DNA of 64,000 nucleotides from Nitrosococcus wardiae (GTDB lineage: Bacteria; Pseudomonadota; Gammaproteobacteria; Nitrosococcales; Nitrosococcaceae): assembly GCF_004421105.1 (NCBI RefSeq), contig NZ_CP038033.1:515659-579658 (forward strand). Reading direction: 5' to 3'. Shown in pieces: positions 48,106 to 58,828 of this stretch. Each line of letters begins with the position of its first letter. The first letter of the stretch is position 1. The translations under genes and the position numbers were made by a program. Below the pieces are notes generated by a model. It was not told where the DNA came from. It searched no databases and saw nothing but the letters and a program-made list of their open reading frames with translations.

Positions 48106-51100
48106 CTAGTACAACATAAAATCAACAGCAACTTTATACCCATCCCCTTTCAATATCTTTAAAAACTGTTCCCCTGCTGCTTCACGACTAAACTGATAAG
48201 ACCGTTGGAGCGCTGAATGAGATAAATGATCATATTGCACCCTATTCGTCAGAAAAAGATTTGTACAGTATTGGGTATACTCTATTAATTCTTTTTCATT
48301 ATTAAACAAAAATCCATTGCGACCATGTTCCACAGTTTCTTTTTGCCCAGCAGCATTTATCACGATGGGAACACATCCATATGACATCGCTTCCACGGTA
48401 GTTATGCCAAAATGTTCATACAAATCTGGCCGCTTATTGATATCCTCATTCAATCCGGTTGCGTGCCAGTAAATGGCAGATTTCATATAGAAATATTTTA
48501 AGTCATCCAATGGCAAATCAACATGGAAATCTACTGGATAGCCTTCTGCTTCTTGGCGCACGGCGTCCAAATATTCTATTTGGTCGTGATGAACTTGACC
48601 CACAAAGGTGAGCCGCCACTCATCATCTAAAATATTTTCATTCTTCATCCATTTGAACACCCTAACCATCTCTAATTGCTTTTTGCTATGGCCATCTTTA
48701 AAAAACCGGCCCACATTAAGAATTCTTTTTTCTTTTTGGATTAGAGCTAAATCAATGTTCGGAATAGCTATCGATGGATACAATAGCTGACTGTCAACAC
48801 CCCACCACCGTTTCACCCAGTAGGCGGTATAATTGGAATTGGCTAGAAAGCCATTATAGGTGGCGAGAAAATCTTTGGCTTCATCCGGCCTATCATCAAG
48901 CCGATAAGGAAAACTCACAATGTAATAGGATAAACGGCTTGCGCATTTCAAATCGGAGCCAAATGCAGAATTGACAAAAATATCGTATGGTGAAGTGGCC
49001 TCAGGATGGTAATGTATATATTCGGGGCTTACCATCCGTTTCCGGCAAAACTTAAGTTCTATACCGAATTGCCTCTCAAGTGTAGTAATACTAAAATCAT
49101 TTTCTGAAATCAGATCAACCGGACCCAGCTTTTGTAGCGTTTGCGCGATGACACAAGCGTGATGCTCACCGCCACCGAGCGTATTCCAGAAATTATTATA
49201 AACTGCAATCTTTGGAAATCTACTTTTTCGCTCTATAAAGCTTCCTCTTTCAATCATCGGAAGCAGTCTTTCCCAATCAGTAAAAATCTCTGGAATTTTT
49301 CTCGCAAACTCTTGTTCTTCCGGAGTGCATGATGGCTTCTGATAATAGGAATGGAGATGATTAAGCTCCACTTCAGTTTCTTGCAATCGGTTTTTCCAAA
49401 AGTCTTCCGAGTAGTGGGATGCAAGAAATAAAATTCGGTTTCTATTAACGTAATACCTAAAAAATGCAGAGTTTTCTTTACTGCTTGAGGCATGCTTATG
49501 ATAAATAATACTCTCTGGACAATAGGCCAAACGATAACCCCCTTCACTGATGCGCAATGAAAGCTCTGTATCTTCAAAATAGGCAAAGAAATGCCCAGCA
49601 AAGATAGGTTTTCCTTTCAGTGCTTCACGCCGAATTAACATTGCGCCACCACAAAGAGCCGTTACAGCTTCCGTGCAGTCAAACTGGCCTTCGTCGGGTT
49701 CACCGAATCCTCGATCTCTGACTTCCCCCCAATCATCTGCTTCGGAAGCAGCATTGTTAATGAGATAGCGAAGGGCAGGGCTCTTTGTTTGGTCTTTGAA
49801 ATCTAAGGTGACTTCAGACCAATGTTCCCCCCTAACAAAACAAGTTGCAGAAGTATGGAGGGCGGTAGAGGAAATCTTGATAGGGATTTCGCTATCCGCT
49901 TCAGCTTTCAATCGAAGCTTTACTGACGTTTGCCCTTCGCAGATAGGGAATTGAAACTTTGCTTTTTGCTTAAAGCGTAGGCATTGTTTACCATCCAGAC
50001 TCTGTTCCTGTTCCCAGCCTTGGGAAAAAAACCATTTCTTATAGACGGGGGCTGATTCTTCTAGAGCCGACACATCCATCCAGACATCCACATTGGCCGA
50101 GGCTTTGAGTTCTATCCGGGCGAATTTTTTCCAAAACAATATTTTGGGACCTACGGCTCCAATTTCTGGAGATTGCTCTATGCAGGCCACCAACCCTTTT
50201 AACCAATCTCTATCCGCCTCCATATCATTATTGACTAAGCAGAAATACCGTCCATTGGAAACTTCAGCCCCAATATTATTGCCTTCTGCAAAGCCTGTAT
50301 TTTCCGCTAACGCCACAATTTTCACTGTTGGAAAATGGTCTCTAACGTAGCCAATGGAACCATCAGAGGAGCCATTATCAACTAATATGATTTCAAAATC
50401 TTGGTAACTTTGTTCTTGAAGCGAAATGAGAAGATCCTGTAGATGATGCCGCCCGTTGTAATTGACGATGATGATGCTGACTTTTCTTTTGTTTTCCAAA
50501 TCATTTATCAAAAAAGAATCTGGATCCTCAAATGCCTGGATTGCTCTTTCATAACTCACCAGGGGGGAACCATGCAGCATCCGGGTGTAATAATTGACTA
50601 CACTTTTGGCCGTGGTTGGCTTCTTAACGAAAGTAATATAGGCATTCTGGATTCGTTCCCGGTTGAGTAACTTCAGGCTCTTGTAGGGATAACGAATGGC
50701 CAACAGGGTGATCTGTAACATCAAGTGAAGATTACTCGGATGCTTAGCAAAAGGATCGCACAGCCTATCGTAAACCTTTCTTGCTGGCCACGTGATTCCC
50801 ATTCCTAGACGGTAACTTAACGAGGTTTTTATATCTTCTATCCGCCCCATCGCCCCTTGAAAGTGCGCATCTATTTCTTTTTGAACCCCAATGAGCTCTT
50901 TTAACTCTCTATCCTTGGTTGTACGAATGGCATTGATTTCTTCATCTTTCGCTACCCGAAGCGTATTTATTTCTTCATCTTTCGCCGCACGGAGGGCATT
51001 TATTTCTTCGTCCTTTACTACCCGAAGAGTGTTTATTTCCTCATCTTTCGCCGCACGGAGGGTATTTATTTCCTCGTCCTTTTGCCTCACCAAGGCGGTA

Positions 51101-52125
51101 GTTTCCTTTACCATTCGCAAGGCCAACCTACTGAGCTCCTGATCTTTGCGCTCCAACTGTTGTTTAAACCATTGCAGTTCAGCTTGTTTCTGCTCTTCTA
51201 GCTCCTGGGCTTTTTTTGCTAACCCTTCATCGAGTTCCTTTTTGAAATAACGTAATTGGCAACGGTAACTTCTTGCCTCTAAGGCAAGCGGATCGATTTT
51301 ATCGAGTAAACTCTTAGCCCGCTCCCTTGACCACCCTGAAGCAGCAAACTCATTAAGGCATTCATATATCTCCAATAAACCAGGTATATTTTCGTTTTCC
51401 TGGCGGACATCCTCCATCGTAGAGGCTGAATGGCATAACTCTTTATCAACAAATTGTTCGGTAAACCAGTTAATTTTCTTGTGACTAAAACTCTTATTTT
51501 CTTCGATAAATCGAATTAACCGCGTTAGCTCCCTTTGTGGCTCTCGTAATAAACCCAGATAGTCGATAAATAAAGGCGGCTCGACTGGCAATTCTTGCAA
51601 ATAACGTAAAATCAAATAATAGTGGTTAATCCATAAAATCAGTCCCTTCTGTTGTTCGAAGCCATTGCGCACATTCAGTGAATTGGCCACATCTATTGGA
51701 TTCCGAACAGAAACCACAAAACGCGTTTGAATATCTTCTTGCTTTGCTGCGGCAAGCCAGAAGGGTAATAGCAGGCTTAATCGCGGATCTTTTATTGCAA
51801 CGACTCGACTTTCCGACATTTTTTCCGCCAACAAAGCGGCTACGCGGGCTCTCAGGGGGGCAAGATCGCTCTTGGTAAAGTCAATAAAGGGAACGGTTGA
51901 AGGAATATCCCAGCGTAAATCTAAGGTCTCTAATAAAGCAGTATTTATTTCAAAGGCATCCCTATCTTCCCAAAAACCCTTGGGATTATCGAAGGCTGGG
52001 GGCATTAATTTGTCTCCCAAATCGGCCCCTGAGACCTCTACTGCTTTAGCCAAAAGACTGGTCCCCGAGCGATGCATTCCTAGCACAAAAATTAAAAGTC
52101 GTTCTGTCTTATCGCTGTTTGCCAT
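48106..52125 (-). CDS. Giant sulfotransferase - coiled coil - GT2 - GT4 fusion protein (1339 aa)
   Basis: Order of parts: residues about 10-260, sulfotransferase (PAPS loop FVLGMHRSGTSLLAKAVEVS; second site RFVVSVRNPIDVANSLNVR). About 300-435, coiled coil, including KDEEINTLRAA-type 11-residue repeats. About 540-930, GT2 (KVSIIIVNYNGRHHLQDLLI, ILVDNGSSDGS, CLVNNDMEADRDW, then FFAYFEDTELSLRISEGGY) interrupted by a beta-rich insert of about 140 residues. About 990-1339, GT4-like (FPKIAVYNNFWNTLGGGEHH, RILNVGRFFKDGHSKKQLEM, FGITTVEAMSYGCVPIVINA). The ATG at 52125 follows an AGG site. One protein thus joins sulfation and two sugar-transfer activities. Confidence 0.9.
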   Translation of the reverse strand: MANSDKTERLLIFVLGMHRSGTSLLAKAVEVSGADLGDKLMPPAFDNPKGFWEDRDAFEINTALLETLDLRWDIPSTVPFIDFTKSDLAPLRARVAALLAEKMSESRVVAIKDPRLSLLLPFWLAAAKQEDIQTRFVVSVRNPIDVANSLNVRNGFEQQKGLILWINHYYLILRYLQELPVEPPLFIDYLGLLREPQRELTRLIRFIEENKSFSHKKINWFTEQFVDKELCHSASTMEDVRQENENIPGLLEIYECLNEFAASGWSRERAKSLLDKIDPLALEARSYRCQLRYFKKELDEGLAKKAQELEEQKQAELQWFKQQLERKDQELSRLALRMVKETTALVRQKDEEINTLRAAKDEEINTLRVVKDEEINALRAAKDEEINTLRVAKDEEINAIRTTKDRELKELIGVQKEIDAHFQGAMGRIEDIKTSLSYRLGMGITWPARKVYDRLCDPFAKHPSNLHLMLQITLLAIRYPYKSLKLLNRERIQNAYITFVKKPTTAKSVVNYYTRMLHGSPLVSYERAIQAFEDPDSFLINDLENKRKVSIIIVNYNGRHHLQDLLISLQEQSYQDFEIILVDNGSSDGSIGYVRDHFPTVKIVALAENTGFAEGNNIGAEVSNGRYFCLVNNDMEADRDWLKGLVACIEQSPEIGAVGPKILFWKKFARIELKASANVDVWMDVSALEESAPVYKKWFFSQGWEQEQSLDGKQCLRFKQKAKFQFPICEGQTSVKLRLKAEADSEIPIKISSTALHTSATCFVRGEHWSEVTLDFKDQTKSPALRYLINNAASEADDWGEVRDRGFGEPDEGQFDCTEAVTALCGGAMLIRREALKGKPIFAGHFFAYFEDTELSLRISEGGYRLAYCPESIIYHKHASSSKENSAFFRYYVNRNRILFLASHYSEDFWKNRLQETEVELNHLHSYYQKPSCTPEEQEFARKIPEIFTDWERLLPMIERGSFIERKSRFPKIAVYNNFWNTLGGGEHHACVIAQTLQKLGPVDLISENDFSITTLERQFGIELKFCRKRMVSPEYIHYHPEATSPYDIFVNSAFGSDLKCASRLSYYIVSFPYRLDDRPDEAKDFLATYNGFLANSNYTAYWVKRWWGVDSQLLYPSIAIPNIDLALIQKEKRILNVGRFFKDGHSKKQLEMVRVFKWMKNENILDDEWRLTFVGQVHHDQIEYLDAVRQEAEGYPVDFHVDLPLDDLKYFYMKSAIYWHATGLNEDINKRPDLYEHFGITTVEAMSYGCVPIVINAAGQKETVEHGRNGFLFNNEKELIEYTQYCTNLFLTNRVQYDHLSHSALQRSYQFSREAAGEQFLKILKGDGYKVAVDFMLY
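50903..51083. repeat. 33-bp in-frame tandem repeat, about 5.5 units
   Basis: Units at 50936, 50969, 51002, 51035 and 51068 begin ATTTCTTCATCTTTCGC or a close variant and are exactly 33 bp apart, after a degenerate unit. Units alternate in type (CTACCCGAAG, then CCGCACGGAG), giving a 66-bp higher-order period. They encode KDEEINTLRxx hendecads of the giant protein's coiled coil. Confidence 0.9.
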
Positions 52126-52142
52126 AGAACACACCTGGATTT

Positions 52143-52205
52143 AAGTACCTATGAATAAAATATGAGCTGTTTTAGGAATACTTCAAAACTTTCACTGAGG
52201 TGCTT
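52143..52205 (-). repeat. Core-less (solo) copy of the AAGTACCT palindromic element
   Basis: 63 bp from AAGTACCTATGAATAAAATA to the end CACTGAGGTGCTT. It matches the two ends of the full element (reverse orientation) but has no GC-rich core. The internal junction reads TTTTAGGAATACTTC on the plus strand. It sits 18 bp upstream of the 1339-aa gene's start. Confidence 0.85.
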
Positions 52206-52408
52206 ATTTCTGGAAACGCATATGATAAGCCTACGATTTACAGAAAGCGCAGTATGAAATTTCCCATGGAGATACCGTCATAAATATAGCTTCCCTGGGA
52301 GATCGGTGTGTACAACATAGTCAAAAGGTGAAGCTTGATTCGTGGTGATTCTGGAATCTTCTTTGGCAGGATTTCAGTGACGTGGATAATGCGATTCCTA
52401 ATGATGAA

Positions 52409-53179
52409 TCATGAAATTTGTTCTGTCTCCTGCATCCTGGAAACAATCTCCTCTTTCACCCGATTATAAAACATTATTTCAGCCTGATTATATTCTTCTA
52501 TAACCTCCTTGACATGTTGCAAATCACTATCCTGGAGCAGCTTTATTTGCTGCTCTTTCTCTGTGTTCTGATTAACTTTCCTTAAAGTCACCTTCGAACT
52601 ACCCAGCTTTGTGGATAATTCATCAATAAAAAAAGGAAGGAATTCCTGGATTCCATAACAAAAATAATTTTTAATATTCGACCATGCCACGTCGACAACA
52701 TATTCTGGATTCCTTCGTATCTGACTAAAACTTTTCTTATCCACCAAAACTTTCAGTTGATGGTTACGAGTGGAGGCCATAACGCCTGGCAGGGAAGAAG
52801 CTTGCAGATATTCGATGATTCCTTTCTCTTTTGCCAATCTAATTCCAGCTTTTTGCTGCTCTAGAAGATTTTCATCTAGCAAGACATCATCTGGAAGATT
52901 ACGAATAAAGAAATACAATGAAATAACCCGTTCAACTGGGTCCCGCAGAACGGTTATATATTGGGTATCCTTGGGTAATGTCTCTATCGCAAAACTATAA
53001 TGGATATGTCCTTTATATAACAAATAATAGTGAAAAACACTTGGATCCACCGAAGTATACTCATGCATAAAAGTCGCATTGAATATCTTATCCGCCGGAT
53101 ATATGTTTTGTAGGACATCGGTGACAGCAGTACCGGCCGTTTTCGGTATATGAATATAACATAAACGCTGCAATTTCAT
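52409..53179 (-). CDS. Sulfotransferase (family 2 type)
   Basis: A 256-aa cytosolic PAPS-dependent sulfotransferase. The 5' phosphosulfate loop is LCYIHIPKTAGTAVTDVLQN near residue 10; the 3'-phosphate site is YITVLRDPVERVISLYFFIR near residue 85. I choose the ATG at 53179 with AGGAG upstream, since this family starts just before HIPKTAGT; the frame is open to 53281 (TTG). It lies downstream of wzt-2, in the second glycan island, and probably adds sulfate to the glycan. Confidence 0.88.
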   Translation of the reverse strand: MKLQRLCYIHIPKTAGTAVTDVLQNIYPADKIFNATFMHEYTSVDPSVFHYYLLYKGHIHYSFAIETLPKDTQYITVLRDPVERVISLYFFIRNLPDDVLLDENLLEQQKAGIRLAKEKGIIEYLQASSLPGVMASTRNHQLKVLVDKKSFSQIRRNPEYVVDVAWSNIKNYFCYGIQEFLPFFIDELSTKLGSSKVTLRKVNQNTEKEQQIKLLQDSDLQHVKEVIEEYNQAEIMFYNRVKEEIVSRMQETEQIS

Positions 53180-53347
53180 TTTTTCATTGACTCCTTCGCC
53201 AAAAAAAATACCCGACCTGCCCCACCAAGCCTTCAGGAAAATTAGCAACTCCGAAATTTTATCTTGAGGCGATGCAGTCAAGCGAAAGCCCTATCTGACT
53301 ATTCCGAATCGTTTTCAAACCCTTGGCAATTCCTACTATCATCAATC

Positions 53348-54073
53348 CTACTTAGCGCTTTTTTTCTGAACAAACGCCTCATAGGCACCCACCACCTCCT
53401 TCACTTCCCCTTCCATCCGGGTTTTCCCCTGCTCCACCCAAACAGCCCGATTACACAGCTTGCGAATAGCCGCCGCGCTATGGGAAACCAAGACGATGGT
53501 TTTGTCCGATGCAATCTTACGCTCCATCTCGGCCCGCGACTTGCGCTGAAAATCAGCATCGCCAACACCCAATACTTCGTCGATAAGCAGAATATCCGGC
53601 TCCATGTGGAAGGCCACCGAAAATCCGAGACGGGCCCGCATGCCGGCAGAATAGGTGTGCAAAGGATAGTCAATAAATGACTCCAGCTCTGCGAAGGCGA
53701 TAATTTCGTCTAGCTTCTCCTCAACCTGCTTGCGCCGGAATCCCAACAGCAAACCACTGACAATAGCGTTATCACGTCCACTGAGGTTGGGGTCGAAACC
53801 CAGCCTCAAGGATAATAGGGCCACGGAATGACCCGGATTGATAATTTTCCCCTTGTCCGGAAGGATGATGCCGCTGAGTACCTTCAACAGGGTGCTTTTT
53901 CCCGCCCCATTGCTGCCAATCACGCCGAGGGATTCCCCCTGGTACAGATCGAAGGAGACATCCCGTAAGGCCTCAAAGCGGTCCTGCCTCAGAAACCCTG
54001 TCCTGCGGCGATAGGTGACGCCGACGCCCCTTACCGAGAGCACGATCCCATCTGCCACCTTCAAGGGCCTCAT
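53348..54073 (-). CDS. wzt: Polysaccharide ABC transporter ATP-binding protein, short form (second wzt)
   Basis: A 241-aa ABC ATPase: Walker A GSNGAGKST, the signature HTYSAGMRARLGFSVAF and Walker B ILLIDEVLGVGD, with switch His in IVLVSHSAAA. It ends at residue 241 and has no C-terminal glycan-binding domain, unlike the other Wzt in this window. The ATG overlaps the wzm stop by 4 bp, so the pair is coupled. This short type is used for capsule-like or lipid-linked glycans without terminal-modification control. Confidence 0.93.
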   Translation of the reverse strand: MRPLKVADGIVLSVRGVGVTYRRRTGFLRQDRFEALRDVSFDLYQGESLGVIGSNGAGKSTLLKVLSGIILPDKGKIINPGHSVALLSLRLGFDPNLSGRDNAIVSGLLLGFRRKQVEEKLDEIIAFAELESFIDYPLHTYSAGMRARLGFSVAFHMEPDILLIDEVLGVGDADFQRKSRAEMERKIASDKTIVLVSHSAAAIRKLCNRAVWVEQGKTRMEGEVKEVVGAYEAFVQKKSAK

Positions 54074-54852
54074 GCTTCGACGATCCTGGGGTAGAGATGA
54101 TTAAAGCGCTGGATCAAAAGTTGGGCGCTGTAAACACCCGCCAGGGCGAATAAGCCCACTTTGAAGAGGGCGGCCCAATCCGGCCAGACGCCGTCCATGA
54201 GGATATCCCGGTAGGCTTCGATGAGGTTAGCCATGGGATTGAGGTAAAAGTAGGTTTGATACTGCTCAGGGATGGAAGCCCCAGCGTAGAAGATGCCGGA
54301 AAGAAAGAAAGCCAATTGCAGCAAGGCATCGATGAGGAACTTAAGATCCGGCACGAAAGGGATAATCGCCGCCGCCAAATAAGTGAAGGTCGTAAGTAGC
54401 AGCAACTCCACCCCTATGACCAAGGGGAGCGCCAGATAGGCAGGGCTGATATCAAATCCGTAGATCCAGAGGAAAATGAGCAACAGGGCAAAAACGAACC
54501 CGAACTTCACCAAGTCCATCACCATTTCGATGGTGGGAAAGATCTCCTTGGGCAAGTCCACTTGGGTCATCAGCCGACCATTACTATGGATAGCATTCAT
54601 GCCATGTTTGATCGAATTGGCAAACCACTGCCAAACCACCAAGCCCACCAACAGGAAAGCGACGAAGTCTTCCGTGCCACGCTGAAAGAGCAGGCCGAAA
54701 ACGACGTAATAGACCGACATGGAAAGGATAGGTTCGAGGATCCACCAGAGGAAGCTCAGGTAGGTGCGGGACGCCTCGGCTCGCAGCCCGGTGAAGGCCT
54801 TAAACAGGACGAGTTCTCGATAACGTGGCTGAAGGACGGTGATTCCAAACAT
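54070..54852 (-). CDS. wzm: Polysaccharide ABC transporter permease (second wzm)
   Basis: A 260-aa ABC-2 permease: YRELVLFKAFTGLRAEASRT, LSFLWWILEPILSMSVYYVV, VAFLLVGLVVWQWFANSIKH and FFLSGIFYAGASIPEQYQTY; the C-terminal NPMANLIEAYRDILMDGVWP motif is typical for Wzm. It is coupled to wzt-2. A palindromic element ends 58 bp upstream of its ATG. Confidence 0.93.
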   Translation of the reverse strand: MFGITVLQPRYRELVLFKAFTGLRAEASRTYLSFLWWILEPILSMSVYYVVFGLLFQRGTEDFVAFLLVGLVVWQWFANSIKHGMNAIHSNGRLMTQVDLPKEIFPTIEMVMDLVKFGFVFALLLIFLWIYGFDISPAYLALPLVIGVELLLLTTFTYLAAAIIPFVPDLKFLIDALLQLAFFLSGIFYAGASIPEQYQTYFYLNPMANLIEAYRDILMDGVWPDWAALFKVGLFALAGVYSAQLLIQRFNHLYPRIVEA

Positions 54853-54909
54853 CTTTTTGCCGATTTACAATTCGCACATACTTCTCAAAATGGTTGCCGA
54901 AATAGAGCT

Positions 54910-55073
54910 AAGTATCTCAGTAAAAGCTTTACAGTATTCCTGGAGCGAGCCGGTGGCGTGGAGCCAGGGGACAGGGAAGTCCCCACCAACCCTTTTTTCA
55001 GGGAGGAAAAACGGGTTGGTGGAACACCTCCGGCTCGCTCCTAAAACACCTCATATTTTATTCATAGGTACTT
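54910..55073 (+). repeat. Full AAGTACCT palindromic element, copy 1 (164 bp)
   Basis: Ends AAGTATCTCAG and TCATAGGTACTT (8-bp near-match inverted termini). The core has an outer stem GGAGCGAGCCGG/CCGGCTCGCTCC, a GGGGAC/GTCCCC hairpin and an inner stem CCACCAACCC/GGGTTGGTGG. It lies between the GT2 gene ending at 55114 and wzm-2. No protein is supported here. Confidence 0.9.
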
Positions 55074-55113
55074 AAAAATCTCGGTACGCTGCAGCAGACA
55101 GCCGTCCATTCGC

Positions 55114-56238
55114 TCAGCCCCTTTCAGGAAGAGGCTTCGGCACCGACCCTCGCGCCAATAGGATGGGTTCAAGGTTGACCGGGGAGATAGCGGTTTGCTG
55201 ACCTCCTGTCAACGCATCCCGATAGGCCGCCACCAATGCGGGAAATAGCCGCAAACGCCCGCGCAGGAGGTAGATAAGGGATTTGCCAAAAAACCGCAAT
55301 ATTGCCGCCATGGGCAGAAGCTTGGGGTGGTGCTTACTCGTATACAGGAGCGTGCTCAGATTTTCGTAATAGTTGCTCAGCCAGGACTCTTTCCGATTGA
55401 CCGACGACCTTCCACCGGTGCTTACCCCCCCCTTATGGTAGACCATGCTCTCTTTACACCAATGGAGGGCATACCCACTAGCACAGGCCCTGCGGGCCAA
55501 GTCCGTTTCCTCGTAATAGAGGAAAAAACGCTCGTCGAATAAACCCACCTTTGTTAACATCTCGGCGCGGCAGAACATAGCGGCCCCGCCGATATAATCC
55601 AAATGGATCTCCCCCTCCCCGGCTAGCACCTCATTTAAGCTCCGACCCCTCCCAATGGGCTTCATGAGGGTAGTCAGGGGGTGATAACGGCATCCCCCAG
55701 CCATTTGCACCCGATCGCGGCGATAGTAATCGACTATTGTACTGCCAAAGACTCCCACATGGGAATTCTGCTGGGCGCATGCCAATAATGCCGTTAGGGC
55801 GTGCGGGTGGACAAGGACGTCGTTGTTGAGAATCCAGACAAACTTGCACTGCTCTCTCCCCAGGGCACAACGGATACCCACGTTGTTTCCCCCTGAATAA
55901 CCCCGATTGGCGCCGGTTTGCACCAGCAGAAAGTCCCACTCCGAAGGCGGGGCACTCTCCCCCAGTGGCTGTGCTGGAGAATCCACTTGCAGCTGGAAGT
56001 GGCGCCTGGCCCAATCTTTAATCCGGTCGACGGAATCGTCCGCAGAGGCGTTGTCACAGACTACCAGGGCCAGTTGGCGCCCCTGGATCAAGGGGAGCAG
56101 GGAGGCTAGACATTCTAGGGTATGGTCAGGCCGGTTCCAGTTGAGAACAACGGCGCACACGCTGGGCGCTGTCTTTTCAGGCGCGGGCATCCTGTGAGGG
56201 GCTGCAAAAGCCCCGTCTGGCGCCTTCATGCTAAGCAT
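55114..56238 (-). CDS. Glycosyltransferase family 2 protein
   Basis: A 374-aa GT2: CAVVLNWNRPDHTLECLASL, VVCDNASADDSVDRIKDW, GANRGYSGGNNVGIRCALGR, FVWILNNDVLVHPHALTALL and FYEETDLA-type FFLYYEETDLARRACASGYA. No membrane helices except a weak C-terminal stretch (FFGKSLIYLLRGRLRLFPAL). The start is one of two nearby ATGs (56238 or 56229). It lies 13 bp after the preceding GT2 gene and is the last one before the palindromic element and wzm-2. Confidence 0.9.
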   Translation of the reverse strand: MLSMKAPDGAFAAPHRMPAPEKTAPSVCAVVLNWNRPDHTLECLASLLPLIQGRQLALVVCDNASADDSVDRIKDWARRHFQLQVDSPAQPLGESAPPSEWDFLLVQTGANRGYSGGNNVGIRCALGREQCKFVWILNNDVLVHPHALTALLACAQQNSHVGVFGSTIVDYYRRDRVQMAGGCRYHPLTTLMKPIGRGRSLNEVLAGEGEIHLDYIGGAAMFCRAEMLTKVGLFDERFFLYYEETDLARRACASGYALHWCKESMVYHKGGVSTGGRSSVNRKESWLSNYYENLSTLLYTSKHHPKLLPMAAILRFFGKSLIYLLRGRLRLFPALVAAYRDALTGGQQTAISPVNLEPILLARGSVPKPLPERG

Positions 56239-56251
56239 GGGAGGATAAACT

Positions 56252-57193
56252 TTATTCCCATGCAGCAGGGTTTGCCGCTGCTTTCCGAGCGGATTCCTCC
56301 ACGGAGGGCAAAACGGCCGCCGGTAAGGTGCCCAGATAAATGGGTCTCTTTTTAGGCGGTGCGAAATCTATTCCCCGTATCTTTTTATATTGTGCTCGCC
56401 ATGACTGAATATTCCGTTTCAACCGCTCTTCCCCGGCATTTGTGGCAATGCCCCCATGGATTTGATGAAAGACTCCTTCACCGAGCAAAATCACCAACTC
56501 CGCCTTATCCCTTAATACCGCCCGGCGATAAAAGTCCAGATTGACTAGTCCCCCTCCGGTCGCATCGAATCGTTCATCATAGCCATTGATGCTCCAATAA
56601 CTCTCCCGGCGCAGAAAGATGGCATTGCTTTCCCCAATGGGCAAAAACCACCCCCCTTGGCAAGAACCGGCGAAAACGGAAGTCTCAAATAATCGGTAGC
56701 CGTCCTGGGGAAAGTCGATTTCCGCCAATAAGGCATCTTCCTTTTGCTGATTGTACCCTGCGGTAATGGAGCGGTTTTGCAAATCCGGGCCGAGGTGCCA
56801 TCCCAGCACCGACACGGTGGGATCGGCAAATATTCGGAAAGCCGCAGAGGCCCAACGCACCAGGCCCGGAGAAGCGATTCTGGCCCCATCAATCATCAAG
56901 CAGACAATGGCGCCGCGGGAGTTTTCCACCCCCTGATTTAAGGCATAGGCGGGTGAGGAGGGCGCATTTTCCAGATACAGATAGCGAAAATTCTCACCGT
57001 AGGCCTCTACCCGCTCCTTCCCAAAGGGAGGACGTGAACCGTTGTCGACCACCAGAACTTCGTAATTGATCCCCGCACTGCCGAGCTGATAGCTTCGGCT
57101 CAACGACTGCAAAGTCCTGGGCAGTTCCCTTTCCATATGGTAGGTAATCACAATAAAAGACAGCTCTACCGGCTTGCGGAAGAATCCCAACAT
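56252..57193 (-). CDS. Glycosyltransferase family 2 protein
   Basis: A 313-aa GT2: ELSFIVITYHMERELPRTLQ, VLVVDNGSRPPFGKERVEA, NAPSSPAYALNQGVENSRGA, then VCLMIDGARIASPGLVRWAS and SIDEF-like SINGYDERFDATGGGLVNLD near residue 210. This pattern (ITYHMxRELPRTL, CLMIDGAR) marks a GT2 subgroup found with sulfotransferases in polysaccharide loci. Its 5' end overlaps the sulfotransferase gene by 28 bp. Confidence 0.87.
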   Translation of the reverse strand: MLGFFRKPVELSFIVITYHMERELPRTLQSLSRSYQLGSAGINYEVLVVDNGSRPPFGKERVEAYGENFRYLYLENAPSSPAYALNQGVENSRGAIVCLMIDGARIASPGLVRWASAAFRIFADPTVSVLGWHLGPDLQNRSITAGYNQQKEDALLAEIDFPQDGYRLFETSVFAGSCQGGWFLPIGESNAIFLRRESYWSINGYDERFDATGGGLVNLDFYRRAVLRDKAELVILLGEGVFHQIHGGIATNAGEERLKRNIQSWRAQYKKIRGIDFAPPKKRPIYLGTLPAAVLPSVEESARKAAANPAAWE

Positions 57194-57879
57194 GGCAAAG
57201 ATCTCGATAATAGCTCCTGATACACATTCTCCACATGCCCGGGTAGCGGCAAATCTTCCCTCCCCCTGTGGGTGCGCAGTCCTCTATCAAAGAAGGTCAG
57301 TGCGCTTCGAGTGGGATTGAGCCCCAGGTTCCTGGCCGCCTCCACCACTCGCTCGACGTAAACCTCGGGGGAATCGTCAAAACAGACCAGATCGAAACCG
57401 AATCTATCCTGAAAGTGGATCAGGCGGCGGTTATAAAGCCACCATAATTCCAAATGTTGACTCAGCGGCCCTCCGCCCCGGGCCACCAGGGAGCGGGCAA
57501 CCGCAGCCGGATGCCGAAAACTCCCAATGAACTGAATCTCGGGGACGACCTCAAGCCAACCCTCGAGGGTGAACAGGGTTCGGGGATCCTTAAAGCCCCA
57601 GGTCTCCAAGTGGGAATGTTCTTCCAGTAACCCGCGCAGCTCCATCAAATGTTCCCCATCCCAGCAGCATCCCCCCCTCGGCGGTACCTTCCAGCTCCCC
57701 TGGTTGGTCGCAAGCACCGCTTCGTGGAGCGCCATAATCCGCGGGTGTTCATTGTTTCCCTTTTTGTTGTAGGGATTTCGCCGGGACACGGCCCCTAAGT
57801 GGAGACCCGCATTTTCCAGCATGCCCGTCAGGCAGGAAGTCCCGCTCCGATGCATGCCTAAAATAGCAATCACCTTCAT
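57166..57879 (-). CDS. Sulfotransferase family protein
   Basis: A 237-aa sulfotransferase: IAILGMHRSGTSCLTGMLEN (PAPS loop) at residue 4, GFKDPRTLFTLEGWLE, and IQFIGSFRHPAAVARSLVAR (3'-phosphate site). It is close in type to the N-terminal domain of the 1339-aa protein (GMHRSGTS, KDPR, RxP). The upstream region (57880-57925) carries repeat-like DNA and the palindromic element copy 2. Co-transcribed with the following GT2. Confidence 0.9.
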   Translation of the reverse strand: MKVIAILGMHRSGTSCLTGMLENAGLHLGAVSRRNPYNKKGNNEHPRIMALHEAVLATNQGSWKVPPRGGCCWDGEHLMELRGLLEEHSHLETWGFKDPRTLFTLEGWLEVVPEIQFIGSFRHPAAVARSLVARGGGPLSQHLELWWLYNRRLIHFQDRFGFDLVCFDDSPEVYVERVVEAARNLGLNPTRSALTFFDRGLRTHRGREDLPLPGHVENVYQELLSRSLPCWDSSASR

Positions 57880-57926
57880 TTTGATTTCTTTGTGATCTTA
57901 GCGCCTTGGTGGCGATCGTATGAATT

Positions 57927-58073
57927 AAGTACCTCAGTAAAAGTTTTGAAGTATTCCGGGAGTGAGCCGGCGGCGTGGAGCCAGGGGACAGGGAAGTCCC
58001 CGCCAACCCTTTTTTCAGGGAGGAAAAACGGGTTGGCGGAACACCACCGGCTCGCTCCTAAAACACCTCATAT
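57927..58073 (+). repeat. AAGTACCT palindromic element, copy 2 (right end truncated)
   Basis: Starts AAGTACCTCAGTAAAAGTTT and keeps the full core, including CCGCCAACCC/GGGTTGGCGG, but lacks the last 17 bp of the right end seen in copy 1. It abuts the stop of the sulfotransferase gene at 58079 and lies 48 bp before the sulfotransferase start at 57879. The inner stem differs from copy 1 by a compensatory pair change. Confidence 0.9.
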
Positions 58074-58078
58074 CCAGG

Positions 58079-58828
58079 TTAGCCGATCGGCACATTGAGC
58101 CAGCCGGACAAATCTTTCTTGAGATAACGGGACAATGAGGTGATTTTATCACTATAAAGGCGGCGCAACTCGGCAGCCAGGGACTCGGTCAGAGGAGGTC
58201 TCGCTTGCAAGTGAAACCCCATACCCGGATGGACCCTGCGCCGCAGTTCCCCTTCCGGCACGGTATCAAAGAAGCTGGCGTCCACTCCCAGATGGAGCGC
58301 GGCGTCCACCAGCAGCTTACGGGGATTTTCCTGCAAGTCCTGGTAATACAGGAGCAATAATTGTTCGCTCCCAAACAGCCCCCCCCAACGGCGGAGAGTC
58401 GCTTCATAATCGCCACGGGCCAGGGAGGCTTGGGAGCGAAAAACATCGAAAAACCACGGGTCGCTCGCTTCCTCCCGGGTCATCTGTAGTTTGGCAAGGC
58501 CCATCTGCGCCGCCGACCAAGCCCGCTCAATGGGATTGCGCAAAATAAAAAAGATCCGCAAATCCGGATTGAGGGCATGGATCTGGCGGATATAGCGCTC
58601 CTCCAGGATAGCATAGTCGGGAGTAATGTCGCCCTGAATAAAGCCCCCCGGGTCCGCGAACACCTGGCGGTACCAGGAAATGTCATCCGGGCGCCGGCCG
58701 GCCTGGACCCAATCCCAGTAATGCACCTCCTTCCCTTTGGGAAAGCGAATCCGAGGATGCTTGGCGAGCTGGGAATAAAGCCAAGTGGTTCCGGCCTTCT
58801 GCGCGCCAATCCCGAGAAAGTCCAGCAT
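58079..58828 (-). CDS. Sulfotransferase domain protein
   Basis: A 249-aa PAPS-dependent sulfotransferase: FLGIGAQKAGTTWLYSQLAK (5' loop, residues 4-23), KEVHYWDWVQAGR, and LRIFFILRNPIERAWSAAQM (3' site); a C-terminal motif GFHLQARPPLTESLAAELRR is as in heparan-type enzymes. It is the first gene of the second island's minus-strand run and follows the lipoprotein gene by 35 bp. Confidence 0.92.
   Translation of the reverse strand: MLDFLGIGAQKAGTTWLYSQLAKHPRIRFPKGKEVHYWDWVQAGRRPDDISWYRQVFADPGGFIQGDITPDYAILEERYIRQIHALNPDLRIFFILRNPIERAWSAAQMGLAKLQMTREEASDPWFFDVFRSQASLARGDYEATLRRWGGLFGSEQLLLLYYQDLQENPRKLLVDAALHLGVDASFFDTVPEGELRRRVHPGMGFHLQARPPLTESLAAELRRLYSDKITSLSRYLKKDLSGWLNVPIG

Follow-up and report, generated by a model that had tools for sequence, protein, structure and literature searches.

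Introduction

Among the described systems closest to the repeat reported here is RUP of Streptococcus pneumoniae, a 107-bp element resembling a miniature inverted-repeat transposable element (MITE), with terminal inverted repeats (TIRs) that resemble those of IS630-Spn1, a target-site duplication (TSD) and 110 copies in one genome, as given in the available portion of PMC3049150. The excerpted text of PMC8794818 argues that hairpin stems can arise and persist through template switching, with compensatory changes of several bases at once, and gives rare cases of inversion in place; its authors grade their own evidence for stem maintenance as circumstantial. Here we analyzed a palindromic repeat in a 64,000-nucleotide stretch of the Nitrosococcus wardiae genome (NZ_CP038033.1, positions 515,659 to 579,658 of the forward strand), which we call the window and whose coordinates we use below, and found that the repeat is a MITE, a non-autonomous transposon, of the IS630 type. 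The element is real and mobile; the family is new and its kind is known, and its core is unusual and rearranging. Compensatory changes are commonly taken to prove that an RNA fold is selected. A mobile palindrome that offers orthologous copies, a core inverted in place and perfect arms allows that reading to be tested directly against template switching.

The repeat is an IS630-type MITE

An earlier, sequence-only reading of the window had described two copies of a structured repeat sharing an outer stem, a GGGGAC/GTCCCC hairpin and an inner stem, with one compensatory pair change between them. We found both copies and all of these stems at the positions that it gave, with slightly wider boundaries, and the copies are 93% identical across 148 nt. 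The changed inner pair, A54985-T55020 in copy 1 and G58002-C58037 in copy 2, is likewise present in the sequence. Copy 1, for which the folding scores were calculated (54900-55080), folds far better than dinucleotide shuffles on both strands, with z = –6.1 on the plus strand and –7.1 on the minus strand and 0 of 200 shuffles as good. Rfam has no match in the window; copy 1 reaches only sub-threshold matches, below the gathering threshold. What had gone unrecognized was a third, core-less copy, the TIRs and the transposon nature of the repeat.

The copies are bounded by the TIRs TAAGTAYCT/AGGTACTTA (in copy 1, left terminus TAAGTATCTCAG and right terminus CATAGGTACTTA), and they are too short to hold a transposase gene. 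Two empty sites in the sister genome G002 reveal the target. At the first, G002 reads GGAAA-TA-AGG where N. wardiae reads GGAAA-TA[element]TA-AGG around a 167-bp copy (L010); at the second, G002 reads GTGCT-TA-AAGG where N. wardiae reads GTGCT-TA[65-bp element]TA-AAGG around a core-less copy (L071). The TSD is thus TA at both sites. TA duplication is typical of IS630-type elements. In the same genome, we found an IS630-family element of 1075 bp (3943798-3944872) whose ends agree with the MITE ends at 19 to 22 of the first 28 bases; beyond the TAAGTA start, 13 to 16 of 22 bases are identical, and at most 0.26% of 5000 shuffles did as well. Of its two open reading frames (ORFs), one matches NF033545 above the cut-off (1.5e-39) and the other matches it below the cut-off (5.5e-11), and the longer one also matches DDE_3, while the other IS630-like loci examined in this genome have no ends like those of the MITE. 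The similarity of the ends, together with the TA target, identifies the repeat as an IS630-derived MITE. That its copies move was proposed by the sequence-only reading and is borne out by the many dispersed copies, the ends held in common with an IS630-family element and the TA duplication at the two empty sites; judging from its ends, this IS630 transposase is the putative source of that mobility.

Table 1. Coordinates of the three MITE copies in the window and of their structural parts.
Feature	Position	Strand	Description
Full-length MITE copy 1	54909..55074	+	166 bp, starts TAAGTATCT, ends AGGTACTTA
Copy 1 outer stem, 5' arm	54942..54959	+	
Copy 1 outer stem, 3' arm	55024..55041	+	
Copy 1 hairpin 1	54967..54984	+	GGGGAC[AGGGAA]GTCCCC
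Copy 1 inner stem and apical hairpin 2	54985..55020	+	inner stem ACCAACCC/GGGTTGGT; hairpin TTTTTC[AGGGAG]GAAAAA
MITE copy 2	57926..58073	+	core complete, right terminus lost
Copy 2 hairpin 1	57984..58001	+	
Copy 2 inner stem and hairpin 2	58002..58037	+	altered pair G58002-C58037
Third window copy, core-less MITE	52142..52206	–	65 bp, two ends abutted

Copy number, forms and distribution of the family

To count copies, we searched the N. wardiae genome (4.02 Mb, one contig) for each end, with at most 3 mismatches allowed. There are 67 matches to the left end, part of which carry other interiors (L047, L059, L066, L077 and L078), and 50 to the right end, as compared to 0 and 1 for the reversed-pattern controls. 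A list of 65 rows with both ends also took in 10 rows that belong to other genomes and, within the IS630 element, one spurious pairing, leaving 54 rows in N. wardiae. All but one of these (53/54) are 65 to 247 bp long. Five are 65 bp and lack the core; 25, at 144 to 182 bp, carry it; and 19, at 219 to 247 bp, carry the core plus an extra hairpin module of 72 to 75 bp. Three more measure 119 to 127 bp, one is 93 bp with a different interior, and the last is 345 bp; further copies in this genome are truncated. Core-less, shortened and long forms thus stand side by side in the family. In the 345-bp copy (L072, genome positions 2927104-2927448), another inverted-repeat insertion (ACCAATTT...AAATTGGT) is nested in the long form.

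By BLAST, 4 of the 63 order genomes searched contain the family, and these 4 belong to the same genus; in two of them, G003 and G004, the copies are few (7 and 5 matches) and decayed. Some insertions are common to two species (L035/L108 with L091; L026 with L163) and others are found in a single one; the family is therefore older than the split of the two species, and some insertions exist in only one of them. The ortholog site of one core-less copy (L057) had no match in three relatives, and the ortholog alignments of L102 with L092/L097 and of L086 with L104 are unclear across the element, so that we claim nothing from them. A search of plasmids and phages gave no match to the repeat. An exact 23-mer of it had 0 matches in a contig collection, outside which the records of this genome and its near relatives may lie. 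We found no description of a Nitrosococcus MITE repeat in the literature searched, and it is on those searches that we call the family new; the available part of one paper on Nitrosococcus (PMC7285500) mentions IS630 transposases and does not contain the terms 'MITE' or 'transposable'.

Rearrangements of the palindromic core

The clearest rearrangement is an in-place inversion: at the same site in two species, L026 and its ortholog L163 carry cores in opposite orientations, between flanks that are 232/250 and 228/250 identical (91–93%). A second copy, L043, has a turned-round core in part. In L027, the 5' arm is an inverted copy of the 3' arm, giving a 25-nt perfect inverted repeat from which the GGGGAC hairpin is gone, and L049 has a perfect inverted repeat of 22 nt, where the remaining copies compared have 18 nt or less. 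By direct reading, core blocks have been lost from several copies, in some of them between short direct repeats. The inverted core, the 25-nt perfect arm and the lost blocks point to template switching at the palindrome, by which compensatory changes are possible without selection on the product. By the same token, the compensatory change between the two window copies is probably, at least in part, a mutational product.

Covariation and decay in the stems

To weigh covariation against decay, we aligned 35 core-bearing copies over 37 pairs (1279 pair cells), a set without the module-bearing long forms, the inverted copy (L026), the palindromic one (L027) and short deletion forms. Standard pairs fill 92.0% of the cells as compared to 90.7% in shuffles (0/500 as high), and 16 cells are changed on both sides as compared to 4.6 in shuffles (0/500). 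Of 500 shuffles, 0 reached the covariation score and 7 matched the count of pair types, while the number of pairs with a both-sides change, 6, was reached by 39. With four of the five measures reached by just 0, 0, 7 and 0 of 500 shuffles, some covariation is real, though relatedness among sequences can lift such measures above the shuffles even where there is no structure.

The same stems are widely broken. Among the 1279 cells, 136 are not Watson-Crick (34 G-T, 73 A-C, of which 24 fall at one pair, and 29 other), and with 102 non-standard and 34 G-T cells set against 16 double-changed cells, compensatory changes do not exceed broken pairs as they would be expected to in a structured RNA. At the inner pair that the sequence-only reading had singled out, the 34 copies with letters there have G-C in 18, A-T in 3, C-G in 1 and a mismatch in 12. 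Mean diversity is 0.100 in stem columns, 0.059 in unpaired core columns, 0.112 at the left end and 0.059 at the right end; stem columns are thus not less variable than unpaired ones. We also considered a strand-specific RNA constraint and rejected it: with the majority C-A pair left out, there are 34 G-T and 49 A-C cells, and the GGA strand is not preferred as RNA. What the stems display is modest covariation superimposed on decay. That earlier reading had staked its case on further covarying copies and on stems that are not freely broken; the copies are there, and so are many broken stems.

These counts bear on the function that had been proposed, in which the transcribed hairpin alters decay between co-transcribed genes and its pairing is selected for messenger RNA (mRNA) processing or stability. 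The very stable fold on both strands and the excess of double-changed cells would suit such a role, as would the position of the three window copies between co-directional genes and a precedent in Neisseria, where transcripts bearing Correia elements are processed by RNase III (excerpts of PMC10969869). With at least one non-standard pair in 34 of 35 copies (majority C-A pair counted), a covariation term of –0.19 kcal/mol in RNAalifold, wobbles that favor neither strand and the mixed gene contexts described below, we consider this explanation quite unlikely, and the earlier claim of selection on the fold inside operons is not supported.

Gene context, terminators and promoters

The three window copies lie in same-strand gaps, 7, 56 and 46 bp upstream of mechanical ORF starts, as the sequence-only reading had described for its copies. 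The arrangement does not extend to the family. We examined 36 loci (30 in N. wardiae and 6 in G002), with genes called approximately by a codon-usage script, and found that 0 of 36 have more than half of their length within a predicted gene. Among the 35 with genes on both sides (1 locus is incomplete), neighbors are co-directional at 20, divergent at 11 and convergent at 4. These contexts lend no support to a general role between operon genes.

It is very improbable that the repeat serves as a carried intrinsic terminator or promoter. Other MITEs bear promoters (PMC10969869, in part), and one terminator-like site falls inside copy 2, on the minus strand; a scan of 52000-58400 found 8 terminator-like sites as compared to 8.1 expected from shuffles and 9 promoter-like sites as compared to 5.5 (sd 2.3), with no promoter-like site inside the three window copies. 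Neither function stands clearly above chance in this region, and only 4 of 35 loci are convergent. Near the core-less copy, a 1341-residue glycosyltransferase-like gene (48106-52134) contains tandem 33-bp repeats (11 codons) at 50900-51064.

CsrA-like loops in the core hairpins

Both core hairpins present C-G closed hexaloops, AGGGAA or AGGGAG (C[AGGGAN]G). In the available text of PMC7652899, systematic evolution of ligands by exponential enrichment (SELEX) with CsrA gave the consensus core ACARGGAUGU, with AC and GU paired and a hexaloop in most ligands. Hairpin 1 of the main family (ACAGGGAAGT, AC[AGGGAA]GT) agrees with this consensus at 9 of 10 positions and the subfamily of L030, L128 and L168 (AC[AGGGAT]GT) at 10 of 10, both with GGA in a hairpin loop as in a CsrA site. 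A possible function follows, in which the C[AGGGAN]G hexaloops of the GGA-sense transcript would bind CsrA/RsmA as a decoy, a mobile site or sponge whose loops, not stems, are selected.

Several observations would suit a decoy. Where both outer arms of a copy fall in range, GGA is kept in loop 1 in 61/64 and in the hairpin 2 hexaloop in 62/66, counts made from a list with one misaligned module-hairpin row. The genome encodes CsrA, 83% identical to the E. coli protein, and csrA is also present in G003, near alaS-like and aspartokinase-like frames (neighbors named by eye). In 800 kb of the N. wardiae genome, ACANGGANGT occurs 26 times, and all 6 occurrences with a stem of at least 6 bp have the sequence of the repeat. 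A second CsrA-like frame, 52% identical over 46 residues, lies at L288:13712-13849 in N. wardiae, the canonical csrA being in L281.

Set against these, other core triplets are as conserved as the loop GGAs, which rank 8 and 9 of 98, and the core is turned round in L026 and L043. The SELEX ligands are mostly short-stemmed, and very stable stems may hinder binding, according to the portion of PMC7652899 consulted. At 8 of the 20 co-directional loci the GGA strand runs with the genes and at 12 against them, and it is antisense in both core-bearing window copies; these orientation data weigh against a general effect of the CsrA-like loops on neighboring mRNAs. In the literature on CsrA and transposable or repetitive elements, none of the matches listed, as far as their available text goes, concerns such a repeat, and the matches listed for the string 'acagggatgt' are unrelated. 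Overall, we regard a decoy as unlikely.

Similar repeats in other gammaproteobacteria

We searched 185 genomes of the class with a covariance model of the core and found 3 at E ≤ 0.001: N. wardiae itself, G017 (1.0e-9) and G094 (2.3e-5). Within the genus, 3 of 4 genomes match and G004 does not. The class search scored 22 candidates per genome with stricter filters, which makes its absences weak. The G017 and G094 repeats have different stem sequences and the same layout of an outer stem and two hairpins with C[ANGGAN]G loops, a likeness that also speaks for the decoy; the loops are AGGGAT twice in L210, ATGGAT or AAGGAC in some G017 copies, and AGGGAT plus AGGGAG in L211. These repeats have no plasmid match, and in Rfam an RNase P gene is the sole match passing threshold at the distant repeat loci.

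In three of four G017 places, 4–6 of 23 outer pairs are changed on both sides between copies as compared to 2–3 on one side; the counts leave out L234, which aligns with gaps. On the GGA strand, the G017 wobbles are 5 G-U and 0 A-C, with 2 G-A mismatches. Few as these data are, the pairing pattern in G017 points to pairing that may be kept at the RNA level or be template-driven. In G094, two adjacent repeats (L211:1478-1610 and 1650-1780) have similar inner hairpins; their long outer stems are wholly unlike each other, and both are paired almost throughout.

A broader scheme would join these repeats into one gammaproteobacterial class of three-way junctions, with two C[ANGGAN]G-loop hairpins that mimic a CsrA/RsmA site. 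One unit would have been captured by an IS630-type MITE in Nitrosococcus and spread to dozens of loci as a candidate CsrA decoy or seed of CsrA-controlled transcripts, its stems rewritten by template switching. This scheme is speculative and, in our judgment, rather unlikely.

The 72-bp passenger module

The insert of the long MITE form is a module, ACCGATTCGCCGGGAGCGAATCGGGAC...GCGCGCCAGGGAGGGCGCGCATC (72–75 bp), whose last hairpin is GCGCGCC[AGGGAG]GGCGCGC. It also occurs alone, at 19 places examined in G002, and in 10 of 368 other genomes of the class, in a search that scored 2 candidates per genome and whose absences are weak. The module, whose loci include L113-L127 and L185-L196, is an independent gammaproteobacterial repeat. 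In one case (L123:667-738 in G002), it lies in frame within a protein gene and adds 24 codons, and the N. wardiae ortholog (L009) is without it; the net difference between the two is 28 codons, since the flanks differ too. At L118:696-842 (G002), the module stands in two tandem copies. An exact 24-mer of its first hairpin occurs in four records of metagenome-assembled genomes (L179-L183, 5 stretches), from Dokdonella, Woeseiaceae and two unclassified Gammaproteobacteria, and in Dokdonella it is found more than once, next to a stretch that is itself repeated and by eye resembles the start of a tRNA-Ser gene.

Discussion

We propose that the repeat is a genus-restricted IS630-type MITE with a palindromic core that is reshaped by template switching, and that no host function is needed to explain it; we give this reading a probability of roughly 0.77. 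In most copies with both ends, the two transposon ends flank a three-way-junction palindromic core, and a transposase acting in trans would spread the element at TA dinucleotides, the target being observed and the transposase putative. At DNA replication, the long arms may pause or fold, and template switching could then correct the arms, invert the core or create new perfect arms, which are the products that we see. Short repeats in the core may likewise permit its shortening or loss, again as seen in the products. Either the core-less or the cored form may have come first.

Several observations weigh against this proposal. Of the two copies that define the inversion, L163 is without its 5' outer arm and is not an intact reference; a deletion could also account for the 22-nt arm of L049, and between L049 and L083 the flanks match without a clean TA junction. 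The excess of double-changed cells could also stem from selection, and, given mismatched intermediates at the same pairs, part of the doubles may have arisen in two ordinary steps. The IS630 element was noticed through its similar end. It occurs once, has two ORFs, and its ends are not identical to those of the MITE. The case for selection on the pairing is less strong than it first looked. That loops of the CsrA type recur in dispersed repeats across different gammaproteobacteria suggests that transposable elements may be tied to a global RNA regulator, a link that is cheap to test.

Set beside known systems, the Nitrosococcus repeat is like RUP and IS630-Spn1 (PMC3049150, in part) in being a multicopy, MITE-like element with a TSD and with TIRs that resemble IS630-family ends. 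RUP is AT-rich and simple, whereas the Nitrosococcus repeat has a G+C-rich three-way-junction core that may be absent, inverted or enlarged by a second repeat. Like the Correia elements of Neisseria, it is a MITE, often near genes, with a stable transcript fold, and inversion has been reported for Correia elements too (available text of PMC10969869). Unlike them, the Nitrosococcus core inverts within fixed ends, and we found no promoter in the window copies. The ends of Correia elements differ from those of the Nitrosococcus repeat.

With the CsrA-sequestering small RNAs of the CsrB/RsmZ type, the repeat shares GGA in hairpin loops, and its C-G closed hexaloops are as in the SELEX ligands; it differs from them in having two hairpins per unit and in being dispersed through the genome as a transposable element that carries candidate CsrA sites. 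The 72-bp passenger module, rather than the MITE, invites comparison with the Rickettsia palindromic elements (RPE). Like them, it is also found in frame within a protein gene and, unlike them, it is of other sequence, shorter (24 codons) and gammaproteobacterial.

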